Of a DNA stretch of 64,000 nucleotides, positions 44,029 through 55,140 are shown one piece after another; position 1 is the first letter of the stretch; each line of letters begins with the position of its first letter. The stretch is taken from the NCBI RefSeq assembly GCF_014651595.1, contig NZ_BMXE01000004.1, forward strand, positions 62,001 to 126,000, read 5' to 3'. Source of the DNA: Pseudovibrio japonicus (GTDB taxonomy: Bacteria; Pseudomonadota; Alphaproteobacteria; Rhizobiales; Stappiaceae). The notes beneath the pieces were generated by a model that saw nothing but the letters and a program-made list of their open reading frames with translations, searched no databases and was not told where the DNA came from. Made by a program: the position numbers and the translations under genes.

Positions 44029-45507
44029 GTGGGCGATTGGATGCTGGTAACAGACGTGTTTGTACTGTTATTTCTGGTTACACAGGGCCTCTTTCTCATT
44101 GCCTCCTACGTCTTTGCCGTCTCCGGTGCAGACGACCTGTTTGTCGACACGCTCTACTACCTGTTCGTTGCCTGGTCTCGCGGGCCTCTGGTTGGCACTA
44201 CAGAGGAGCACCTTTACGAAGAAACCGGTCATGTTGAGCCTAGGCCGCTCGCCATCATGCTGCCTGCCTGGGATGAAGCCACGATCCTCCATCCTGCGGT
44301 CACGGCCATGATGCAAAGGCTGGACTACCCCTCCTACTGGATATTTATCGGCGTCTACCCCAACGACAAGGAAACGCAGGAGGCGGCTAAACAGTTGGCA
44401 GCCGAGCATGACAACCTGCGCATCGTCACAACAAGAAATGAGGGGCCAACCTGTAAGGCGGATTGCGTCAACACAATCATTGCGGCGGTAAGGAAGTTTG
44501 AGCAGGAGCAGGGCATCTCCTTTGCCGGCTTTATCTTGCAGGATGCTGAGGACATCCTCAATCCCAGCGCCCTGCGCATCTTCAATGCCAGCCTTGAGCT
44601 TGCCGACGTGGTGCAGCTCCCCGTTCTTTCGCTGCCCAGAAAGCGCCGCCAGTTCACAGCGGGTCACTATATGGATGAGTTCGCTGAGTTCCACTCCAAG
44701 GAAGTGCTGGTCAGAGGCGTTCTGACCGGTACAGTGCCAGGCGCTGGCGTGGGCACCTGCTACTCGCGTAAAACTATGGAGATGGCAGAGTCTTTATCGG
44801 ACGCCGACGAAGACGGGATCCCGGAGATCTTCAATACCAGCTCCCTGACCGAAGATTATGATCTGTCCATGCGGCTCATGGGGACCGGAATTGAACACAA
44901 TTTGCTCTGGATCCATCCCGACGAAAAAAGTGAGTTTACGGACTTTACAGTCACCCAGGAAATGTTTCCCTACCGGTTCTGGCAAAGCGTGCGCCAAAAA
45001 ACGCGCTGGACCCTTGGCATCGCCTTCCAGGGCTGGGCAGAGCTGGGTTGGAAAGGCGGGCTTGCAGCCAGATACTTCTTTTGGCGTGACAGGAAGATGG
45101 TTTTCTTCAGCCACGCCATCGTCTTGGGCTACGCCTCAATGATGTTCTACTGGTGTCTGTACCTGTATGTACGTCTCGTCCCCGATGCCTACCACTTACC
45201 CCCATTACTGCCGGAAGACAGTCCTTTCTGGTACGTGATCTGGTTCAACGTGCTGCTGCTTGCCCACCGCCTGATCCAACGTCATATCTGGACCGGCTAC
45301 CATTACGGCTTCAGGTCACTGGCCCCCGTCACGCTGCGCTATTTCGTTTCCGTTATCATCAATTACTTTGCCATGATCCGTGCGATTAAGGCTTGGATCC
45401 GCCATTTAGGTACAGGAGAGGTCATCGGCTGGGACAAGACCGCCCATGACTACCCGGATGATGAAAGTCTGGTAACTCTTCCCAGAAGGCGAGAACCGCG
45501 CTCATGA
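44029..45507 (+). CDS. NfrB-like inner-membrane family 2 glycosyltransferase, short form
   Basis: This 492-residue protein has an N-terminal membrane segment (residues 5-31), a GT2 catalytic domain with D-A-E-D at 172-175, T-E-D at 274-276 and Q-K-T-R-W at 323-327, then three or more membrane segments in residues 350-460. The layout is that of processive polysaccharide synthases and is closest, by my recognition, to E. coli NfrB. E. coli NfrB has about 745 residues with a C-terminal MshEN c-di-GMP domain; that part is missing here. The start may be GTG 44029 or ATG 44041. It overlaps the NfrA-like gene (ATGA). Confidence 0.8.
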   Translation: MGDWMLVTDVFVLLFLVTQGLFLIASYVFAVSGADDLFVDTLYYLFVAWSRGPLVGTTEEHLYEETGHVEPRPLAIMLPAWDEATILHPAVTAMMQRLDYPSYWIFIGVYPNDKETQEAAKQLAAEHDNLRIVTTRNEGPTCKADCVNTIIAAVRKFEQEQGISFAGFILQDAEDILNPSALRIFNASLELADVVQLPVLSLPRKRRQFTAGHYMDEFAEFHSKEVLVRGVLTGTVPGAGVGTCYSRKTMEMAESLSDADEDGIPEIFNTSSLTEDYDLSMRLMGTGIEHNLLWIHPDEKSEFTDFTVTQEMFPYRFWQSVRQKTRWTLGIAFQGWAELGWKGGLAARYFFWRDRKMVFFSHAIVLGYASMMFYWCLYLYVRLVPDAYHLPPLLPEDSPFWYVIWFNVLLLAHRLIQRHIWTGYHYGFRSLAPVTLRYFVSVIINYFAMIRAIKAWIRHLGTGEVIGWDKTAHDYPDDESLVTLPRRREPRS

Positions 45508-48500
45508 CCCGTTCACCCAAACCACACAGGGAACGACGAAAGGCGAAGCGCAGGTCAACCTTCTATATAACCTGCATCATCACACTTGTGTTGGTACTGA
45601 CTTTTCCAACCCAGTTACTAGCACCAGAAACGGTTCCAACGCCCCAAGGAACAGGCCCCTACACAACAACTCAAAAGAATGCCTATTACAACAGCTTGCT
45701 GAAAGACCGGCAGGACAGCCAGTCCGTTCTGCAAAGCACATTGCGCGACTATCGCACCTATCCCTTGTTGGATCTGGCCTATCGCTTGCTGGCCGAGGGG
45801 CGCACGGAAGAAGCTCTCGAAGAACTGGACGAACTACTTGAGCACCACCCAGAACATCTGGTCGCCCGCTGGCAAAAAATCCAACTTCTCATAGGTCTCA
45901 ATCGCCCCCTGGCCGCCATAGAGCAGCTCGCCATCCTGCAGTCCCAAGCTCCTGCATTCAGCCGAGGCTATCTCACCCTCGGCCAGCTGCATATGCTCAG
46001 TGGTGATTATACACTGGCCTTTGATGATTTCAGACTAGCCCTTGAAACCGGAAAACTGCTGCCAAGTGATCGCGCCGAGGCCCTTGCAGGCGCTGCGGAA
46101 GCGGCAATCAAACTCGACAAAAATCAGGAAGCTCTCAACGCTCTGAATGGCCTGCTTGAATTAGGCGCTGCCACCCCGCGCCAACGGCTCATCAGGGCCG
46201 ACCTTTTGCGCAACTTCAATCAGCTTGACGAAGCCCGCAGTGAGTGGGAAGCGCTTTCCAAACTGGACAACGCCCCGCAAACCCAGCGCACAGCAATCCT
46301 CAACGAGGCGTTTTTGCTGATAGAGCAGGGCGAGGATGCACAAGCCTACGACCTGCTGTTGGATGCGGAACGCAACGGTCTGTTCACCGGTCGTCAGTCC
46401 ACCGCCCTGGAGCAACGCACATTCGCAAGAGCACTCGCAGCGAGCGCCCTCAACTCCGGTCACCTGGAGGAGCTGCTCACTTTCTTGAACCCAAGTCGTA
46501 TCGACCAGCTGGGCTTGGCCTCCCGTGTGCAGCTTGCCTACGCACTGGCAAAAAAGGGCTCTAGCGCAGAAGCCGAACAAGCACTCCTGACCAGTGACGG
46601 CAAAATTCTCGACACCAAGGCTTTTGCGCCGGAAGAGGCGGCCAACTACTATCTGGCACTGACTGATATTGCTCTTCGCGCAGGAGATGAGGCAAGAGCA
46701 GCCACAGCAGCCCGGTTGTTGAACAATCTCACCCGCAGCCCGGAATATGCCTTGCAGCTCAGCCAATTGGCACAGAGCCATGGTTGGGAAAATGGGGCGA
46801 TCAACACCCTGCTGGAACTACGCGACATGACAGAACAGCAGGACCGGGAAACAGCGGCTGACGCTTGGGCGGATTTGCTGCTGGCACTCTCTGAACTGGC
46901 TCGGCGGGCAGGGGATCTGACCCTCGCAGACGAAGCGCTTCGCGAAGCAGCGCAGCTCGTGCCCAGCTGGCGCACCACAGCCTTAAGAGGGCGCATTGCG
47001 CTCCTCGCCAATGATAACGGCGACGCCTCAGCCCTGTTTCAGCAGGCGCTTATCGACGCAAAAGAGGCGCGCGCAAACAAGCCATTCAACGACAACGAAA
47101 CAGAAGCCTATGCACGCCTGCTGTTTGATCTTGCATCCGTTTCTGCAGCAAATCAGGACTGGAACACCGCACTTAAGTATCTGATCGATGACTGGATGTT
47201 GGACCCGGATCCCACGTTGGTCCTGCCTGCCTACCTGATGCTGAAAGAAGAAGACACACCAGATGATCAGGCAGCACACCAGTGGCTGGAAAATGTGTTT
47301 GACTACGTCGACTCTACAGACCTGACAGATGATGACAAGGATATGTTTGCCGTTGCGTTCCTTGCGCTGGCACGTGTTCAAAAAAGCGCAGGCGACCTAC
47401 AAGACGCCGACAAATCCTACACCCAGTCCATGCAATTGGATCCAGAGCCTGATGCGATTTTGGAAACCGCATACCTGTCTTTGCAGCTCAGCAATCCGGA
47501 AAGAGCACTTAGCCTTGTTGATACATTGGACCAGCCCCAGTACGCAGACGCCACCATGGCCATCCGCTGTCAGGCCCACCTTATGCTTCGCCGCAGTCTG
47601 GATGGCTTATCCTGTTCTGAGGCCGATATACAATCGCAGCCCACTGCAGCAGAAGAGCACCTCATCCTCGGAAACCTGTATTTGCAGCGCGGAGATAATG
47701 AGCGCGCAAAACAGGAACTTATGGAATCCTATAAGCTGAGTCCAAGCTTGGAGATTTCTAACCAGCTGGGATTTATCTATCAGCGACAAGGAGATAATCA
47801 GGGTGCCCGCCGCTGGTTCTCAAACTCATTTGAAAAATACAATGACCAAACCGCGGGCATGGCGCTGCTCTATATGGATCTGGAGCAGATGAACTACGAC
47901 GGCGCCGCCAGCATCCTTGCTAGGCTGCAGGTTGCACGCCTCACATCCGAGCAAATGGCGCGCTACTACGCCGCCAGAGCGCAGATCACACTACGGCAGG
48001 GCGACCAGTCACCCGAGGCGCTGGCTAGTGCGCTGGCTGATTTAATCAAAGCAAGGTCCATCAACTCAACCCCTGATGTTCGTTTCTCAGTGGTTCAGAT
48101 CCTGTTCCAGATGGGGCAGCTGGAGGAGGCCGAAGCAGAATATGAGAACCTGCCGCTAGCTGACAAAATCAACCCTGCCGTGCTCGCGCTAGGTGGCTAT
48201 ATAGCCCTTGCCGAAGGGGATTATGATCTGGCCATCATCCGTTTTGAAGCGTCGCTGGAAATAGATCCAAATCAGGAGGACCTTCAGGAAGATCTGGCCT
48301 ACACCTATCTTGCAGCTTTCGAGAACAGGAAAGCAGCTAGAATCTTCCGCCAACGTATCGAAGTACTGCATGAGCGCACGCTGGACATATATGAGCAAGA
48401 CAAACTGGAACGCTTTCAGCGCCAACTTCGCATTCTGGATATTCCGATTAGCTTGTTGATTTTCGACGGCATCAGCCCATCACGTCAGGACGAGGAGGTC

Positions 48501-49199
48501 ATCACTGGTGCCATCTTGGGCATTCCGTCCAGCAGCCCGTTCGGGTCCATCGAGGCCGCATGGCGCCCACCTGTAATCGGATTTCAAAACGGTCGCGTTT
48601 TTGAGGTCATAGCCCGCGCCCAGTGGCTCAATCGGCGCTACAGCTTCATTCCCAATGATGACACATACCAGACGATCGTTGGCGTGCGCTTCAAGCCCCT
48701 TATGACGCAAAACCTCAAGATCGGCGTAGAGCGCTTCTTCAAAGGTGGTACCCTTACAGAGGACAATACCTTGGGAAGAATACTCTGGTCATATACCAGA
48801 GGCCATGACTTCTTACCGCTATATGATTGGCGTACTGGTCTCCCAATTGAGAAGGAACCCTATGTAAATCTCTACCTTGAAGGTGCTCGTTTCTTCGAAA
48901 ATGAGAAGGCAATACTTGCATATGGAGACGGACGACTTGGATACACTTTTAGACTCGATCATAACCTGATCTTCTCACCCTTTGTCTATTCTATAGGTAG
49001 TGGAAACTGGAGCTCACTCCTTAGCGCTGTAGCAATCGAAGCAGGGCTGGGAGCATCCTTACGATGGAGAGGGGTGTACACCGAAACCTACGGCGACTTG
49101 CTCCGGCTTGAGGTGTTCGCGCGCGTAGGACATGAAGTGTTAAACACAGATGACAGTCAAACCAGCCGAGTACTTCTCGGACTTCAGGCGAACTTCTAA
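45504..49199 (+). CDS. NfrA-like TPR outer-membrane glycan export protein
   Basis: This 1231-residue protein starts with a basic N-terminus and a signal-anchor or signal peptide (about residues 20-36). It continues with many degenerate TPR helical repeats over residues 65-960, and ends with a beta-rich domain of about 230 residues (from I-S-P-S-R-Q-D-E to L-L-G-L-Q-A-N-F) that matches the bacteriophage N4 adsorption protein A C-terminal pattern and ends in aromatic Phe like outer-membrane proteins. With the NfrB-like synthase it should form a trans-envelope polysaccharide secretion system like PgaA/PgaC or BcsC/BcsA. It overlaps the genes on both sides. Confidence 0.8.
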   Translation: MTRSPKPHRERRKAKRRSTFYITCIITLVLVLTFPTQLLAPETVPTPQGTGPYTTTQKNAYYNSLLKDRQDSQSVLQSTLRDYRTYPLLDLAYRLLAEGRTEEALEELDELLEHHPEHLVARWQKIQLLIGLNRPLAAIEQLAILQSQAPAFSRGYLTLGQLHMLSGDYTLAFDDFRLALETGKLLPSDRAEALAGAAEAAIKLDKNQEALNALNGLLELGAATPRQRLIRADLLRNFNQLDEARSEWEALSKLDNAPQTQRTAILNEAFLLIEQGEDAQAYDLLLDAERNGLFTGRQSTALEQRTFARALAASALNSGHLEELLTFLNPSRIDQLGLASRVQLAYALAKKGSSAEAEQALLTSDGKILDTKAFAPEEAANYYLALTDIALRAGDEARAATAARLLNNLTRSPEYALQLSQLAQSHGWENGAINTLLELRDMTEQQDRETAADAWADLLLALSELARRAGDLTLADEALREAAQLVPSWRTTALRGRIALLANDNGDASALFQQALIDAKEARANKPFNDNETEAYARLLFDLASVSAANQDWNTALKYLIDDWMLDPDPTLVLPAYLMLKEEDTPDDQAAHQWLENVFDYVDSTDLTDDDKDMFAVAFLALARVQKSAGDLQDADKSYTQSMQLDPEPDAILETAYLSLQLSNPERALSLVDTLDQPQYADATMAIRCQAHLMLRRSLDGLSCSEADIQSQPTAAEEHLILGNLYLQRGDNERAKQELMESYKLSPSLEISNQLGFIYQRQGDNQGARRWFSNSFEKYNDQTAGMALLYMDLEQMNYDGAASILARLQVARLTSEQMARYYAARAQITLRQGDQSPEALASALADLIKARSINSTPDVRFSVVQILFQMGQLEEAEAEYENLPLADKINPAVLALGGYIALAEGDYDLAIIRFEASLEIDPNQEDLQEDLAYTYLAAFENRKAARIFRQRIEVLHERTLDIYEQDKLERFQRQLRILDIPISLLIFDGISPSRQDEEVITGAILGIPSSSPFGSIEAAWRPPVIGFQNGRVFEVIARAQWLNRRYSFIPNDDTYQTIVGVRFKPLMTQNLKIGVERFFKGGTLTEDNTLGRILWSYTRGHDFLPLYDWRTGLPIEKEPYVNLYLEGARFFENEKAILAYGDGRLGYTFRLDHNLIFSPFVYSIGSGNWSSLLSAVAIEAGLGASLRWRGVYTETYGDLLRLEVFARVGHEVLNTDDSQTSRVLLGLQANF

Positions 49200-50229
49200 A
49201 TCATTGTTTTTGGGGCTCTTTTGCCTTGTTTCCTTCCTATTCTCAACGGCCAACAAAGCCCAGGCACAGCCAGATTCCGGCATTAAGGAATGTATTCCTA
49301 TTCGCATGAGCTTCATCCAGCCGTGGGGTAATGAATATTTTCCTAACCACAGGTTGTGGCGCAGTGAACTCCTTTCACATCAAAGACTTGGCGTAGAAGA
49401 AATCATCCTTCAATGGACCCTGTGGGGCAACGAATTGATCATGGAAGTTAAGCCTCCAATTTGGCTGGAGGCAGCGGTTATGGGGGCCCATCAATCCGGG
49501 ACCAAGATGTGGTTCGGACTGCGTTACGATCCTTCCTTTATTGCGAAACTGAGGGCCGAAGGGCAGCCATACCTTGACAGACGCCTTGAGGAAACCAGAA
49601 AGCTAGCCAACGCCTTAAAGGCACAAATGCAATATGTCGCCGAGCCATCCGAGATTTTTGCGGGCTGGTATATACCAGATGAAATCGACGGCAGACTGTT
49701 GTTGGATAGTGATCTTAGAGAACTGATCACCCAGTATACCACTCAGACCCGCGACGTCTTGCAAGAGGTTCTTCCAGGCCCAGTGGCGATTTCCGGATAC
49801 ACCGATTTGAAAAGCGAACCACAAAAACTAGCGGATTATTGGAACAGCCTGATGGCCGCATCATCCATGGACCTCTTACTGCTGCAGGATGGGCTAGGGG
49901 CCAAGCTTATGGAACCTTATTCCAGCCGCAGTCTACAACGGGCCATCAGCCAAGCCTTCCAGCTGCAAGATCACACAGTTATTCCTGTGGTCGAAATCTT
50001 TGAAATAGATCCCAGAACCGTAGACTTCAAAACAATCCCAACCACTATGAACACCATGAAAAGCAGACTGAAAAACGCACGCTTTTCAGATGAGCAGCCT
50101 GTGGCTTTGTTCTCACTATCCAGCCACATCCTCAGGTTTGATAACAAACACAGCCGCGATATGGCGGAGTTTTTAACTGGTAACGCGAAAGCCTGCGAAG
50201 ACACCTATGGGCCGAACAGCATAAGATGA
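49150..50229 (+). CDS. Secreted DUF4434-like putative glycan hydrolase of the Nfr-like operon
   Basis: This 359-residue protein has a signal peptide with a hydrophobic core at residues 19-32 and a cleavage-like A-Q-A-Q site near residue 40. The rest looks like a TIM-barrel of the DUF4434 type: F-I-Q-P-W, W-x-x-E-L-x-x-x-x-x-L-G-V-E-E-I-I-L-Q-W, and a conserved acidic W-Y-I-P-D-E-I-D segment near residue 175 that could be catalytic. Its start overlaps the end of the NfrA-like gene by 50 bases. In E. coli a third gene, ybcH, follows nfrB-nfrA; this one occupies the same place. A role in trimming the exported glycan is inferred. Confidence 0.6.
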   Translation: MTVKPAEYFSDFRRTSKSLFLGLFCLVSFLFSTANKAQAQPDSGIKECIPIRMSFIQPWGNEYFPNHRLWRSELLSHQRLGVEEIILQWTLWGNELIMEVKPPIWLEAAVMGAHQSGTKMWFGLRYDPSFIAKLRAEGQPYLDRRLEETRKLANALKAQMQYVAEPSEIFAGWYIPDEIDGRLLLDSDLRELITQYTTQTRDVLQEVLPGPVAISGYTDLKSEPQKLADYWNSLMAASSMDLLLLQDGLGAKLMEPYSSRSLQRAISQAFQLQDHTVIPVVEIFEIDPRTVDFKTIPTTMNTMKSRLKNARFSDEQPVALFSLSSHILRFDNKHSRDMAEFLTGNAKACEDTYGPNSIR

Positions 50230-51377
50230 AGCTACAAGAAACAAAGATCATCGGAGCAGGGCCTGCATCCGTTCTTTGTATCGTCGGCACCCGTCCGGAA
50301 GCCATCAAGATGGCTCCGGTGATCTCCGCAATTGCAGAACGCCCAAGTCTCAATGCTCATGTGCTGATGACGGGCCAACACGGAGAAATCGCATCAAACG
50401 CGCTATCTTCCTTTGATATTGACAAGATCAACTGGCTCGATCTGTCCGACATCGGCCACCACTTGGCAGATCAGGCAGGAGAACTCCTGAAAGGCATCAG
50501 CGCCTATATTGCACACCACAAGCCCCGATATACGCTGGTGCATGGCGATACAACTACAGGATTCATCGGAGCCTTAGCCAGTTTTTACAGTTCGGTACCA
50601 GTAGGCCATGTGGAGGCTGGATTACGCAGTGGCGAATTGCATGATCCATTTCCCGAAGAAGCCAATCGGCGACTAGCCGACCAGCTTTGCCACAGATTGT
50701 TTGCACCCACGGAGATCGCCAGAGATAATTTGCTGCGCGAAGGCATTAGCCATAACAAGATTTTGACCACGGGCAATACAGTGGTTGATGCTGTGCGTTA
50801 TCTGGCCAGGAAAATGAAACCGACCCACAAACTCGACGAACTGAAAGACGTACTTGGCCCTCAAAAGCAATTGGTGCTCGTCACTACACACCGGCGCGAA
50901 AATTGGGGCGAACCCATGCGCAATATTTGTAAGGCTGTGAAGACCATCGTGCATAGTCATGAGGACCTGCAAGTGATTCTACCAGTGCATCCAAACCCGA
51001 TGGTCAAAGATGTGATTGAATCTGAGCTCAAGAATGTCGAACGTGTCCATCTGGTCAATCCGTTGTCTTACGAAGCGCTCATCGCATTGCAACGCGATGC
51101 CGATCTGATCCTCACAGACAGCGGCGGCATTCAGGAAGAAGCACCGGAGTTCGGAACACCATTGCTGATCTTGCGCCAGACAACCGAACGACCAGAGGCA
51201 ATCACCAGCGGACTGGCAAAGCTCGTCGGCACATGTGAGCAAACCATCATCGAGGAAGCCAATCGCATCCTCGGAGACCAAAACACGAAGCCAAAGTGCA
51301 AAAACCCGTTTGGCGATGGTCTGGCTGCACAGCGCATTGCAGACGTCGTCGAAAGCCACATAAACTCATGTAACTAG
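50226..51377 (+). CDS. wecB: UDP-N-acetylglucosamine 2-epimerase (non-hydrolysing)
   Basis: This 383-residue enzyme interconverts UDP-GlcNAc and UDP-ManNAc. The family residues are present: G-T-R-P-E-A-I-K-M-A-P at the N-terminus, H-G-D-T-T-T, H-V-E-A-G-L-R-S, F-P-E-E, T-T-H-R-R-E-N-W-G and D-S-G-G-I-Q-E-E-A. An N-terminal extension of about 14 residues precedes the core. ATGA overlap with the preceding gene places it in the Nfr-like operon, which implies UDP-ManNAc is the building block for the exported glycan. Confidence 0.92.
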   Translation: MKLQETKIIGAGPASVLCIVGTRPEAIKMAPVISAIAERPSLNAHVLMTGQHGEIASNALSSFDIDKINWLDLSDIGHHLADQAGELLKGISAYIAHHKPRYTLVHGDTTTGFIGALASFYSSVPVGHVEAGLRSGELHDPFPEEANRRLADQLCHRLFAPTEIARDNLLREGISHNKILTTGNTVVDAVRYLARKMKPTHKLDELKDVLGPQKQLVLVTTHRRENWGEPMRNICKAVKTIVHSHEDLQVILPVHPNPMVKDVIESELKNVERVHLVNPLSYEALIALQRDADLILTDSGGIQEEAPEFGTPLLILRQTTERPEAITSGLAKLVGTCEQTIIEEANRILGDQNTKPKCKNPFGDGLAAQRIADVVESHINSCN

Positions 51378-51851: not shown

Positions 51852-53798
51852 ATGAATAAAAGAGTACCTGTGCCGGTCAATCCACCCCATCCAGGGCGTC
51901 GTCGCTTTCTTAAAGGTACTGTTGCAGCTGGCGCATTGCTGGGCGCAAACCTGTCTGGCTTCGGAACCAGTTTTGCCAGCAGCGGCCCCCAAGGCGGCCC
52001 TGTAACGCTCATGGATCCGGGTAGCCAGCAGAAGTTCGTCAATCCACTGCCAATCCCGCCAAGAATTTATGCAACTTCGGATTCTCCGCTCACTATTCCA
52101 ATCGGCGCCACCGCGCAATGGATGGGACTGGTTGATGCTCAGGGTACTCAACTAAGAACCCCCGTTTACGGTTTAGGCGTTGCTGGTCAGTTCACAACCC
52201 CCGGACCAACAATCATTGCAAGACAAAACGAGACCGTGCATGTCAACTGGCAAAACCAGCTACCTGATGACAGACCACACCTTCTACCCGTTGATACGGG
52301 CATGCATATTCCGGATGTGAACTCTCCTGATGGTCAGTTCAGTGCTCAAAAGCCGGTGGTAATTCACCTGCATGGCGGCCATAGTGAAGCCGAAAGCGAT
52401 GGAAATCCACTCGCTTGGTACACTCAGGGTTATCAGTCCACTGGACCGGAGTTCGCTAAGCAAGAATACCAGTATGACAACACGCAGGAAGCCATGGGCG
52501 CGTGGTACCACGATCACACAGTCGGCATGACTCGCCTCAACGTTCATGCCGGTCTGCATGGGATGTATCTGATCAAAGATGACAATGAACAGCGTCTAAT
52601 TGACAATGACATTCTACCGTCAGATCACCACATGATCGACATCTCAATCACCGATGCGCTGTTTGATGATCAAGGCCAGCTCTACTATCCTGGCTGGCAC
52701 GGCCAACCCATTAATCCAATTACACAAAAAGCGATTCAGGACTCGTGGCCAAACCCGTCAATTCTGGACGAGTTCTTCGGAAACTTCATTCTCGTCAACG
52801 GTATGGTCTGGCCCAAAATGGATGTTGAGGCCAACAAGTACCGGTTCCGCCTGCTCAACGCCTCCAGCTCACGCACCTATGTGCTTGAGTTTGAAAACAA
52901 AATGCCGTTCTATCAACTTGGGTCCGATGGCGGTTTCCTGGACAAACCAGTTCAGCTGACCCAGCTGGTCATCAGCCCGGCAGAACGTATGGATGTTCTC
53001 GTGGACTTCACGCAGGCTGCCGGATCTCAGATCATTTTACGCAACCATGGCCCTGAGATTCCATTCCGCGGCTTTGTTGACCCTGCAGATCCGGCAAACG
53101 CAACCAAACTCGTTTATAACGAGGATGGAGAGCGTTCGATCTCCGATGGACACGGCGGACTTGCCCCCATCGCCAGCCCGGATAACACCGGCGTTATCAT
53201 GCGTTTTGACGTGGCCGAGGCCAGTGATGCCATCCCAGCACAAGCCGCTCAGTTCACTGAAACTGTGCCTTTGCGCACACCATACCAACCAATAGCAAGA
53301 GATAACGTCGCCGTTGTACGACAGCTCATTGTCTATCCTCAGGATGACGACCTGGGCCGCGAACTGAACCTGCTTGGTACACCAGAATCCGGCTCCGTGT
53401 TCTTCATGGACCCTGTCACAGAAAATGTGGCCCTCAACACCACAGAGGTCTGGGAAGTCTACAACGCCACCGCTTCCGGACACCCCATACACGTGCATCA
53501 GGTGCAGTTTGAGGTGATCGACCGTCAGGAATTTGATTGGGAATTCACGCCCCGCGAGCAACCGCTGATGAACACCGGAAGGACCTTCGAAGGTGCTACC
53601 ATTGAGCTTCAGGGTGTCAAGGGAGATAGGGTCCTGCCACAGCCAAATGAGCAAGGCAGGAAAGACACGGTCATCGCCCTACCTGGGCAGGTCACGCGTA
53701 TCATTGCCCATTTTGACCTTCCTGGTGAATATGTATGGCACTGTCATATTATCACCCACGAAGACTATGACATGATGCGTAAATTCGTGGTGACATAG
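51852..53798 (+). CDS. Tat-exported multicopper oxidase
   Basis: This 648-residue protein has a twin-arginine signal (R-R-R-F-L-K-G at residues 16-22). All four copper-binding motifs are visible: H-L-H-G-G-H, W-Y-H-D-H-T-V-G, H-P-I-H-V-H and H-C-H-I-I-T-H-E-D-Y-D-M-M. The lay-out resembles CotA/SufI-like laccases and bilirubin-oxidase-type enzymes, which oxidise metals or phenols in the periplasm with oxygen. The last motif has Met as axial ligand for type 1 copper. The chromate transporter gene follows after 34 bases. Confidence 0.9.
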   Translation: MNKRVPVPVNPPHPGRRRFLKGTVAAGALLGANLSGFGTSFASSGPQGGPVTLMDPGSQQKFVNPLPIPPRIYATSDSPLTIPIGATAQWMGLVDAQGTQLRTPVYGLGVAGQFTTPGPTIIARQNETVHVNWQNQLPDDRPHLLPVDTGMHIPDVNSPDGQFSAQKPVVIHLHGGHSEAESDGNPLAWYTQGYQSTGPEFAKQEYQYDNTQEAMGAWYHDHTVGMTRLNVHAGLHGMYLIKDDNEQRLIDNDILPSDHHMIDISITDALFDDQGQLYYPGWHGQPINPITQKAIQDSWPNPSILDEFFGNFILVNGMVWPKMDVEANKYRFRLLNASSSRTYVLEFENKMPFYQLGSDGGFLDKPVQLTQLVISPAERMDVLVDFTQAAGSQIILRNHGPEIPFRGFVDPADPANATKLVYNEDGERSISDGHGGLAPIASPDNTGVIMRFDVAEASDAIPAQAAQFTETVPLRTPYQPIARDNVAVVRQLIVYPQDDDLGRELNLLGTPESGSVFFMDPVTENVALNTTEVWEVYNATASGHPIHVHQVQFEVIDRQEFDWEFTPREQPLMNTGRTFEGATIELQGVKGDRVLPQPNEQGRKDTVIALPGQVTRIIAHFDLPGEYVWHCHIITHEDYDMMRKFVVT

Positions 53799-53832
53799 CC
53801 CGCCCAGCCAAGAAGTCAGGCATCCTGTTGCA

Positions 53833-55140
53833 ATGAGAGATATCGTAGAAACCGCCTTGCCTAGTGGCCCGCCACCACCGTCATTAGGTAAGGCAATCGC
53901 CACCTTTGCGCGAATTGGAATACTCTCGTTTGGTGGGCCAGCCGCACAGATTGCCCTGATGAACCGCATTCTGGTGGATGAAAAAAAGTGGCTCACACAA
54001 AAGCAGTATCTCAGTGCGCTGAGCTTCTGCATGCTCCTTCCCGGTCCCGAGGCTATGCAGCTGGCAGTCTATTCCGGCTGGAAACTGCACGGCTTGTTTC
54101 TGGGCCTCATGGCTGGGATCTTGTTCGTTCTACCCGGCGCAATTGTCGTCCTGACCCTTGCAATCATATATGGCGCGTTTGGTGATGTACCGGTCGTTTC
54201 ATCCCTGTTTCTTGGAGTGAAAGCGGCAGTCTTTATCATTGTGGTGCAAGCACTTATGCGGCTTTCCAAGAGCGCTCTTGCCGGTACAGCCCACTGGGTG
54301 ATCGCAGCGCTCGCCTTCATCGGCATCTTCTTTCTATCCCTGCCATACCCGCTAATTGTGATCGCTGCGGCTCTCTACGGCCTGTGCTTCAGTAAAACGG
54401 CAAAACAGGAGGCGACGGAGCACATCACCCATGGCACCTCCATTCGCCAGACAATAACCACACTACTCATTTGGTTAGCCATTTGGTTCGTGCCTTTGGC
54501 AGTGGTGGACTACATGACCAGTCCGTCAATCCTGGGGGATATTGGCACCTTCTTCTCCAAACTTGCACTGGTAACATTCGGCGGCGCCTATACTGTGCTG
54601 GCCTATATGGCTCAGGATGTGGTCACCCAATTCGGATGGCTAACCGCCCATGAGATGCTGGACGGCTTCGGTCTGGCAGAAACCACTCCGGGACCGCTCA
54701 TTCTGGTGACGGAATTTGTAGGATACCTTGCTGCCTACCATCAGGGCGGCTTCTGGTTTGGTCTTGCCGGTGCCGCAGTAACCTTGTGGGCGACCTTCAT
54801 TCCCTGCTTCATGATGATCTTTACGGGCGCGCCCTATATCGAATGGATCAGCGCCCAGCCACGCCTCAATGGAGCACTTGCGGCAATCACCGCTGCTGTG
54901 GTCGGCGTAATCCTGAACCTGTCCCTCTGGTTCGGCCTGCATGTCCTGTTCCAGACCGTCAATCAGGAACACTACGCCATCTTCACCCTCTGGCGCCCAG
55001 AGCTCTCCTCAATAGACTGGCACATCGTAGTCCTCTCAACCCTATGCGCCGTCGGCCTGCTATGGCTGCGTTGGGGCATCCTGACAGTTCTCTTCCTCTC
55101 AGCTTTGCTGGGTTGGGGCCTTGTTACCTTTGTGGGTTAA
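53833..55140 (+). CDS. chrA: Chromate transporter ChrA, two-domain form
   Basis: This inner membrane protein has 435 residues and two homologous halves. The first carries F-G-G-P-A-A-Q and L-L-P-G-P-E-A-M-Q-L-A, and the second F-G-G-A-Y-T-V-L and T-T-P-G-P-L-I-L. About ten to twelve membrane segments are expected. ChrA exports chromate, so pairing with a multicopper oxidase suggests metal stress defence. The spacing of 34 bases makes co-transcription likely. Confidence 0.9.
   Translation: MRDIVETALPSGPPPPSLGKAIATFARIGILSFGGPAAQIALMNRILVDEKKWLTQKQYLSALSFCMLLPGPEAMQLAVYSGWKLHGLFLGLMAGILFVLPGAIVVLTLAIIYGAFGDVPVVSSLFLGVKAAVFIIVVQALMRLSKSALAGTAHWVIAALAFIGIFFLSLPYPLIVIAAALYGLCFSKTAKQEATEHITHGTSIRQTITTLLIWLAIWFVPLAVVDYMTSPSILGDIGTFFSKLALVTFGGAYTVLAYMAQDVVTQFGWLTAHEMLDGFGLAETTPGPLILVTEFVGYLAAYHQGGFWFGLAGAAVTLWATFIPCFMMIFTGAPYIEWISAQPRLNGALAAITAAVVGVILNLSLWFGLHVLFQTVNQEHYAIFTLWRPELSSIDWHIVVLSTLCAVGLLWLRWGILTVLFLSALLGWGLVTFVG

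Follow-up and report, generated by a model that had tools for sequence, protein, structure and literature searches.

Which polysaccharide is made by an operon that unites an Nfr-type synthase and exporter with a precursor enzyme, and how is its synthesis controlled? This question is raised by four genes in a stretch of 64,000 nucleotides from Pseudovibrio japonicus (NCBI RefSeq assembly GCF_014651595.1, contig NZ_BMXE01000004.1, positions 62,001 to 126,000), in the following called the window. Four open reading frames (ORFs) on the forward (+) strand at 44029-51377 follow each other in the order nfrB-nfrA-ybcH-wecB and overlap by 4 nt (nfrB/nfrA), 50 nt (nfrA/ybcH) and 4 nt (ybcH/wecB). ORF calls and family scans confirmed the original prediction of an overlapping operon and the identities proposed for its genes, namely an NfrB-like synthase, an NfrA-like exporter with tetratricopeptide repeats (TPR), a protein of the DUF4434 family and the epimerase WecB.

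The operon probably encodes an exopolysaccharide system of the synthase-dependent kind and NfrBA-YbcH type, known from Escherichia coli as the N4 glycan receptor (NGR) system (PMC8669469, PMC8669472). WecB would convert UDP-N-acetylglucosamine (UDP-GlcNAc) to UDP-N-acetylmannosamine (UDP-ManNAc), which NfrB in the inner membrane would polymerise while moving the chain into the periplasm. The TPR domain of NfrA would guide the chain and its C-terminal barrel would export it, and YbcH may be a retaining TIM-barrel glycosidase by which the periplasmic chain is trimmed or cleared. Both systems have in common the order nfrB-nfrA-ybcH, the glycosyltransferase motifs, the NfrA_C barrel, the DUF4434 protein and WecB as precursor enzyme. 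In contrast to E. coli, the window carries wecB in the operon, its NfrB stops before the MshEN domain, and its NfrA comprises 1231 instead of 990 amino acids. In E. coli a gene of the YbcH family already adjoins nfrA, so that wecB is the sole addition relative to this species; the emphasis of the original prediction is corrected in this respect.

WecB and the fate of UDP-ManNAc

The last gene of the operon, wecB (50226-51377, + strand), encodes a non-hydrolysing UDP-GlcNAc 2-epimerase of 383 amino acids that passed TIGR00236 with 418.9 bits (cut-off 210.15). With its best solved relatives, 1vgv and 1f6d (E=1.4e-98), it shares the stretches GTRPEAIKMAP, HGDTTT, HVEAGLR, PEEANR and HRRE, which we take to have catalytic roles. 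The role of residue K15 is given in PMC8669472. This WecB is the sole PF02350 (Epimerase_2) match of the genome, in which no match to the WecG/TagA transferase was found either. The nucleotide-sugar dehydrogenase family was represented by six matches, three of them strong. These three fitted best to UDP-glucose dehydrogenase (two) and TviB (one), and models of UDP-ManNAc dehydrogenases (WecC type) stayed under cut-off in all three and were never the best match. A NeuB-family gene is no evident consumer of UDP-ManNAc, because a second PF02350 epimerase is missing. A commitment of UDP-ManNAc to NfrB, as far as the searched families (PF02350, WecG/TagA, dehydrogenases, NeuB) suggest, would fit the published argument, and the claims that the precursor enzyme is linked and that the system is self-contained hold. 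The NeuB-family gene itself lies in locus L136 (1438-3522; C8 of the genome of the window) and is followed by a cytidylyltransferase gene fused to a domain resembling the 9-phosphatase of 2-keto-3-deoxynononic acid (KDN), with matches under the NCBIfam cut-offs. This is perhaps a nonulosonic acid locus of the KDN type.

A linkage of this kind has been described before. Junkermeier and Hengge (2021, PMC8669469) reported a direct association of wecB with nfrB in all identified organisms without WecB in another pathway, explained it by UDP-ManNAc being the substrate of NfrB, and noted occasional NfrB homologs in alphaproteobacteria. As linkage, logic and alphaproteobacterial occurrence were all published in 2021, the wecB-nfr linkage itself is not new; Pseudovibrio is not mentioned in the main text of PMC8669469 and PMC8669472. 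The operon of the window agrees with those of that survey (e.g. Pseudomonas soli) in the direct wecB-nfrB association without another WecB and differs from most of them by the missing MshEN, as does a minority of the surveyed homologs. The analysis adds two points, an NfrB without MshEN in a genome in which no MshEN was detected, and a glycosidase-like YbcH.

In a family-level search (E <= 1e-60) NfrB was found in 12 of 87 genomes. These were 12 out of 16 from the genus and none out of 71 from six other genera. The NfrB proteins of eight Pseudovibrio relatives are 54-81% identical to that of the window. All 11 other nfrB-carrying genomes of the genus contain nfrB, nfrA and ybcH together, with nfrA and ybcH in pieces in L016 and ybcH cut by the contig end in L025. 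In 9 of these 11 wecB follows ybcH. In G019 the contig breaks off within ybcH; a different contig of this genome carries, at a distance of 101 bases from its end, a wecB that belongs to the operon lineage. WecB of the operon type occurs in 11 of the 12 genomes of the genus with nfrB and in none of the 4 without it (Fisher p=0.003, ignoring kinship); two of the latter have no PF02350 match and two an epimerase of another lineage. A quick WecB tree, from which a partial row (L044) and 8 duplicates among the Pseudovibrio stretches had been omitted, separated four unlinked Pseudovibrio epimerases (support 99) from the operon type (support 100; 12 rows, Desulfogranum among them). The second PF02350 match of G014 (L103) was not treated as a WecB because of its score of 26.6 bits against the WecB of the window and its very long branch. 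In P. denitrificans JCM 12308 (L028, and by inference L005 and L016) the nfrB match contains an in-frame stop, a C-terminal nfrA frame encodes 547 amino acids and ybcH is spread over two frames; this operon looks decayed or badly assembled.

Beyond the genus, two draws of 385 alphaproteobacterial genomes, taken to be identical, gave NfrA_C in 13 genomes, wecB over cut-off in 88, and both in 10. Thus, wecB was present in 10 out of 13 genomes with NfrA_C and in 78 out of 372 without it (p=4e-5, ignoring kinship). The two genes lie within 6 kb on one contig in 9 of the 10 cases, on opposite strands in two of them (G207, G311), and on different contigs in G245. In G245, another alphaproteobacterium, a second nfrB-nfrA-ybcH operon was seen (L127, 3731-9649) whose NfrB of 498 amino acids gave no MshEN match and whose wecB lies on the other contig.

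The stretches fetched for 62 nfrB loci of named genomes contained wecB in 38 cases. It precedes nfrB in 29 of these; in the other 9, from Pseudovibrio (six), Haematospirillum (two) and Desulfogranum (one), it lies downstream and completes the four-gene order. The operons of Haematospirillum (L035, L036) and Desulfogranum (L034) share the order nfrB-nfrA-ybcH-wecB with the window. Unlike that of the window, the NfrB of Haematospirillum keeps MshEN; in that of Desulfogranum (542 amino acids) MshEN was not detected. In the WecB tree Desulfogranum stands beside Pseudovibrio and Haematospirillum elsewhere, so that this tree does not mirror the NfrB tree everywhere. Since Haematospirillum shares the order without sharing this position, the four-gene order may have arisen more than once. 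A further group of wecB-nfrB units, found in Caulobacterales, Maricaulales and unplaced alphaproteobacteria, combines an NfrB with MshEN and a shorter NfrA frame (about 400-600 amino acids) without YbcH match (L044, L046-L049, L053, L056, L060, L062, L063, L065-L068). In L068 NfrA is split, and in L056, L060 and L063 none was detected. These units constitute a compact version of the system.

The NfrB synthase, the NfrA exporter and cyclic di-GMP

The first gene (44029-45507, + strand) starts with GTG and encodes an NfrB-like inner-membrane polysaccharide synthase of glycosyltransferase family 2 (GT2) with 492 amino acids. Its best matches in NCBIfam scored 424.9 bits for PRK15489 'glycosyl transferase family protein' (cut-off 537) and 399.9 bits for PRK11234 NfrB (cut-off 1170), the equivalog NF008411 of c-di-GMP-activated NfrB. 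Both scores presumably remain below cut-off because the matches stop before the model ends, at position 492 of 703 (PRK15489) and 474 of 723 (PRK11234). In blastp, residues 2-478 of E. coli NfrB aligned over 486 columns with 36% identity (E=5e-100), and past the part aligned to residue 478 just 16 amino acids remain in the protein of the window. The motifs DxED, TED and QxxRW of the active site are all present. These are DAED (44542-44553; D172 corresponds to E. coli D169), TED at residues 274-276 (44848-44856; D276 corresponds to D267) and QxxRW at residues 323-327 (44995-45009; W327 corresponds to W330), all on the + strand. Across 67 aligned rows, D, E and D of the first motif, E and D of the second, and Q, R and W of the third are identical in all, and T of the second in 66. 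E. coli D169, D267 and W330 were mutated in published work (PMC8669469). A sequence search among solved structures gave no match for NfrB at E <= 0.01.

A profile search for MshEN found no match anywhere in the genome, NfrB included. The 12 nfrB frames of the genus encode 486-506 amino acids, whereas 1,705 of 1,841 NfrB homologs surveyed by Junkermeier and Hengge (2021, PMC8669469) contain MshEN. With 10 GGDEF domains over cut-off, the genome probably makes cyclic di-GMP (c-di-GMP). Judged by its sequence, the NfrB of the window is without the known c-di-GMP sensor, MshEN being the c-di-GMP-binding domain that was looked for. Without a built-in sensor, control of this NfrB would have to be transcriptional, constitutive or mediated by an unknown partner.

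In a quick NfrB tree of 67 rows the 12 Pseudovibrio rows were grouped (support 100) inside a group of 18 rows (support 99), which also includes two Haematospirillum, Desulfogranum, two gammaproteobacterial contigs and one Rhodospirillaceae contig. MshEN scored >60 bits in 37 of the 67 rows. Among the 30 rows without it, 12 are Pseudovibrio and two others (L042 and L054) show weak MshEN matches. This distribution requires at least 8 changes on the tree, with gain and loss indistinguishable, and the deep order of the tree is unsure due to long branches. NfrB-type synthases without MshEN were also seen in Sphingomonas, Erythrobacter and Citromicrobium (L081, L083, L085), where about 21 kb gave no NfrA_C, YbcH or WecB match. 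They perhaps belong to a different glycan system.

The second gene, nfrA (45504-49199, + strand, 1231 amino acids), matched TPR families and Pfam NfrA_C (46.0 bits, cut-off 25). For the C-terminal region (residues 950-1231; 48351-49196, + strand) AlphaFold2 predicted 12 strands (pLDDT 87.8, pTM 0.84). Foldseek matched this model to outer-membrane barrels, FapF first and then porins, with query-normalised TM scores of at most 0.46 among the matches listed. A sequence search against solved structures gave chance-level matches and no specific relative. The modelled region looks like an outer-membrane barrel, and the homology to the C-terminal domain of NfrA, which the claim of an Nfr-type exporter implies, is present in profile and model.

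Several observations weigh against an Nfr-type system supplied by WecB. E. coli NfrA aligned to the second gene in short pieces by blastp (best E=0.008), so that the NfrA identity is based on the NfrA_C profile. Three of the 13 alphaproteobacterial genomes with NfrA_C (G177, G225, G233) had no wecB match at E <= 0.001. In G177 and G225 no nfrB was found in the fetched 18 kb and 14 kb, respectively; in G233 nfrB is present and the contig ends at the NfrA_C gene. In the nfrB-carrying Pseudovibrio genome G020 the sole epimerase is unlinked, of the other lineage, and stands alone outside any evident polysaccharide cluster, adjoining genes of the 2-oxoglutarate dehydrogenase type near an integrase gene. 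This case is looser than the published linkage rule. Conversely, G021 keeps the linked wecB despite a second epimerase of the other lineage, hence the linkage is not confined to genomes without another. Moreover, an Nfr glycan in Pseudovibrio is a prediction from genes, and the published E. coli case for UDP-ManNAc is genetic.

Two alternatives concern synthase and polymer. The general plan of a GT2 synthase and a TPR-barrel exporter is shared by the cellulose (BcsA) and poly-N-acetylglucosamine (PNAG, PgaC) systems, but an assignment of the operon to either is extremely improbable. Of the six NCBIfam models matched by gene 1 at E <= 0.01, one is NfrB and none is a cellulose or PNAG synthase; the operon also contains NfrA_C over cut-off and a linked UDP-GlcNAc 2-epimerase. 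The BcsA or PgaC identity was therefore rejected on family scans, not by a tree. An Nfr-type system could also make something other than poly-ManNAc, if WecB were co-encoded but NfrB used another sugar, or if ManNAc were just one of two residues. The ManNAc polymer has so far been postulated in PMC8669472 and PMC8669469, and outside Pseudovibrio the stretches fetched for 54 nfrB loci included WecB in 32 cases and lacked it in 22, some of them on short contigs. We nevertheless consider this unlikely, given that the families searched in the genome offered no other consumer of UDP-ManNAc, that operon-type WecB tracks nfrB across the genus, and that N4 infection of E. coli needs wecB alone among the genes of the enterobacterial common antigen (Sellner et al. 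2021, PMC8669472). According to the same study N4 and several other coliphages use the NGR glycan as their receptor. The original interpretation is supported. Of the two outcomes that would have spoken against it, an exporter without the C-terminal NfrA domain and a synthase of the cellulose or PNAG kind, neither was observed in the family scans.

YbcH as a candidate glycosidase

In the favoured NfrBA-YbcH-type system, the third gene (49150-50229, + strand) would act on the chain in the periplasm. It encodes a YbcH-like protein of 359 amino acids with an N-terminal hydrophobic segment (residues 16-34), which matched Pfam DUF4434 (PF14488) with 82.5 bits (cut-off 30) and stayed below the narrower equivalog NF007404 (78 bits, cut-off 344). 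E. coli YbcH is 27% identical over 195 columns (blastp, E=8e-12). YbcH matches were present in 22 named loci, of which L028 (broken), L033 (cut by a contig end) and L050 (in a fused frame) were set aside. The remaining 19 and the YbcH of the window gave an alignment of 20 sequences with 14 invariant columns, all of which are kept in E. coli YbcH. A further check covered 20 rows from the omitted loci, E. coli, copies fetched from genomes and three class-level loci, six of these rows repeating genomes of the alignment; 16 rows have letters at each of the sites Glu178 and Glu282, and all 16 have Glu at both. In total, Glu178 and Glu282 are present in all 28 distinct full-length sequences, E. coli included (the 20 aligned rows plus L017, L020, L022, L050, L088, L127, L129 and L130).

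The predicted structure is an eight-stranded alpha/beta (TIM) barrel (pLDDT 85.9, pTM 0.81) with strands at residues 51-56, 84-87, 119-123, 170-180, 212-217, 242-246, 276-282 and 318-321. Glu178 (49681-49683, + strand), the proposed acid/base, lies close to where strand 4 ends, and Glu282 (49993-49995, + strand), the proposed nucleophile, is the last residue of strand 7. Retaining glycosidases of the 4/7 superfamily have their two glutamates in these places. A TIM barrel with conserved Glu at these two strand ends, by which clan GH-A (the 4/7 superfamily) is recognised, is thus found in the predicted model of YbcH.

Both by profile (E=2e-10) and by fold (first in Foldseek, E=6.7e-13, the sole match that stands out) the closest solved structure is BT_0435 (PDB 4h41). 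It shares the GWYI..E stretch around Glu178 at an identity of 14% and is labelled 'putative alpha-L-fucosidase', an activity which the depositors themselves mark as putative. The next matches were glycoside hydrolase (GH) chains of GH18, GH42, GH164 (beta-mannosidase), GH5 and GH10 at E of about 1e-5 to 1e-4; unrelated TIM barrels, namely tryptophan synthase, ene-reductases and designed Kemp eliminases, scored at similar E. Counted from their descriptions, glycoside hydrolase chains made up 31 among 50 of the 157 matches (E <= 0.001).

On these predicted structural grounds a glycosidase is the somewhat better bet for YbcH. A wider proposal is plausible but decidedly tentative: that DUF4434/YbcH founds a new glycoside hydrolase family, a retaining N-acetylmannosaminidase cutting the Nfr glycan in the periplasm by means of Glu178 and Glu282, and that the Pseudovibrio pathway is in addition uncoupled from c-di-GMP. 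Points against catalysis come from sequence and genetics. In clan GH-A the acid/base Glu is usually directly preceded by Asn, but in the 20 aligned sequences this column holds D (13), E (5), A (1) or Q (1) and never Asn. Apart from DUF4434 itself, none of these 20 sequences matched a glycoside hydrolase family of Pfam significantly; the best weak matches, each in one member, were Cellulase-like (E=0.022), Glyco_hydro_85 (E=0.061) and Glyco_hydro_97 (E=0.073). Furthermore, N4 infects E. coli also without ybcH, and loss of this gene restored motility only in part (PMC8669469).

The first two of these points would suit a non-catalytic periplasmic scaffold or glycan-binding protein, and a putative scaffold is the published reading of E. 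coli YbcH (PMC8669469). This explanation is possible, if rather doubtful, in view of the two glutamates at the strand ends in every full-length sequence and the share of glycoside hydrolases among the fold matches, although unrelated barrels score similarly. The mild phenotype of E. coli ybcH would also fit a trimming enzyme that is not essential for export. A periplasmic hydrolase or lyase belongs to other synthase-dependent systems, such as PgaB, PelA and AlgL (PMC9384988, PMC5933820, PMC12022489, PMC8829089). Our search of the open-licence literature found no paper on DUF4434 and three in which YbcH occurs together with NfrA. The strings 'glycosid' and 'hydrolas' are absent from the main text of PMC8669469, as are YbcH, 'glycosid' and 'hydrolase' from that of PMC8669472.

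Flanking genes and significance of the operon

The four-gene unit is unlikely to be a chance arrangement, as it recurs across the genus even where the tested flanking genes differ. For the downstream multicopper oxidase and transporter genes, tblastn (E <= 1e-15) gave no match in any of the stretches fetched from the other 11 nfrB-carrying genomes of the genus; two of these stretches stop shortly behind the operon. An upstream CoA-transferase gene is present in 7 of the 11, the closer relatives. In the four deeper relatives the tested flanking genes are absent, hence it is the nfr unit itself that is conserved. As the flanks are not constant in the genus, a functional link of the operon to them was rejected. 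The oxidase and the transporter, which we take to be ChrA-like, lie directly downstream at 51852-55140 and probably represent an insertion particular to the lineage of the window; the alcohol dehydrogenase gene behind them directly follows wecB in four other nfrB-carrying genomes of the genus. A consensus scan was uninformative, since its counts were close to expectation (8 promoter-like sites versus 6.3 expected, 8 terminator-like sites versus 8.4).

The chemistry of the NGR glycan has so far been postulated (PMC8669469, PMC8669472). An operon with its own precursor enzyme, in a genome in which the searches revealed no other user of UDP-ManNAc, offers a clean setting for isolating the polymer. 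Its NfrB without MshEN is a natural glycosyltransferase core that may function without c-di-GMP. A glycosidase activity of YbcH, if real, would provide a tool to cut and sequence the NGR glycan, also in E. coli. If the proposed role of YbcH is true, the Nfr pathway would share its plan of synthase, exporter and hydrolase with the PNAG, Pel, alginate and cellulose systems.

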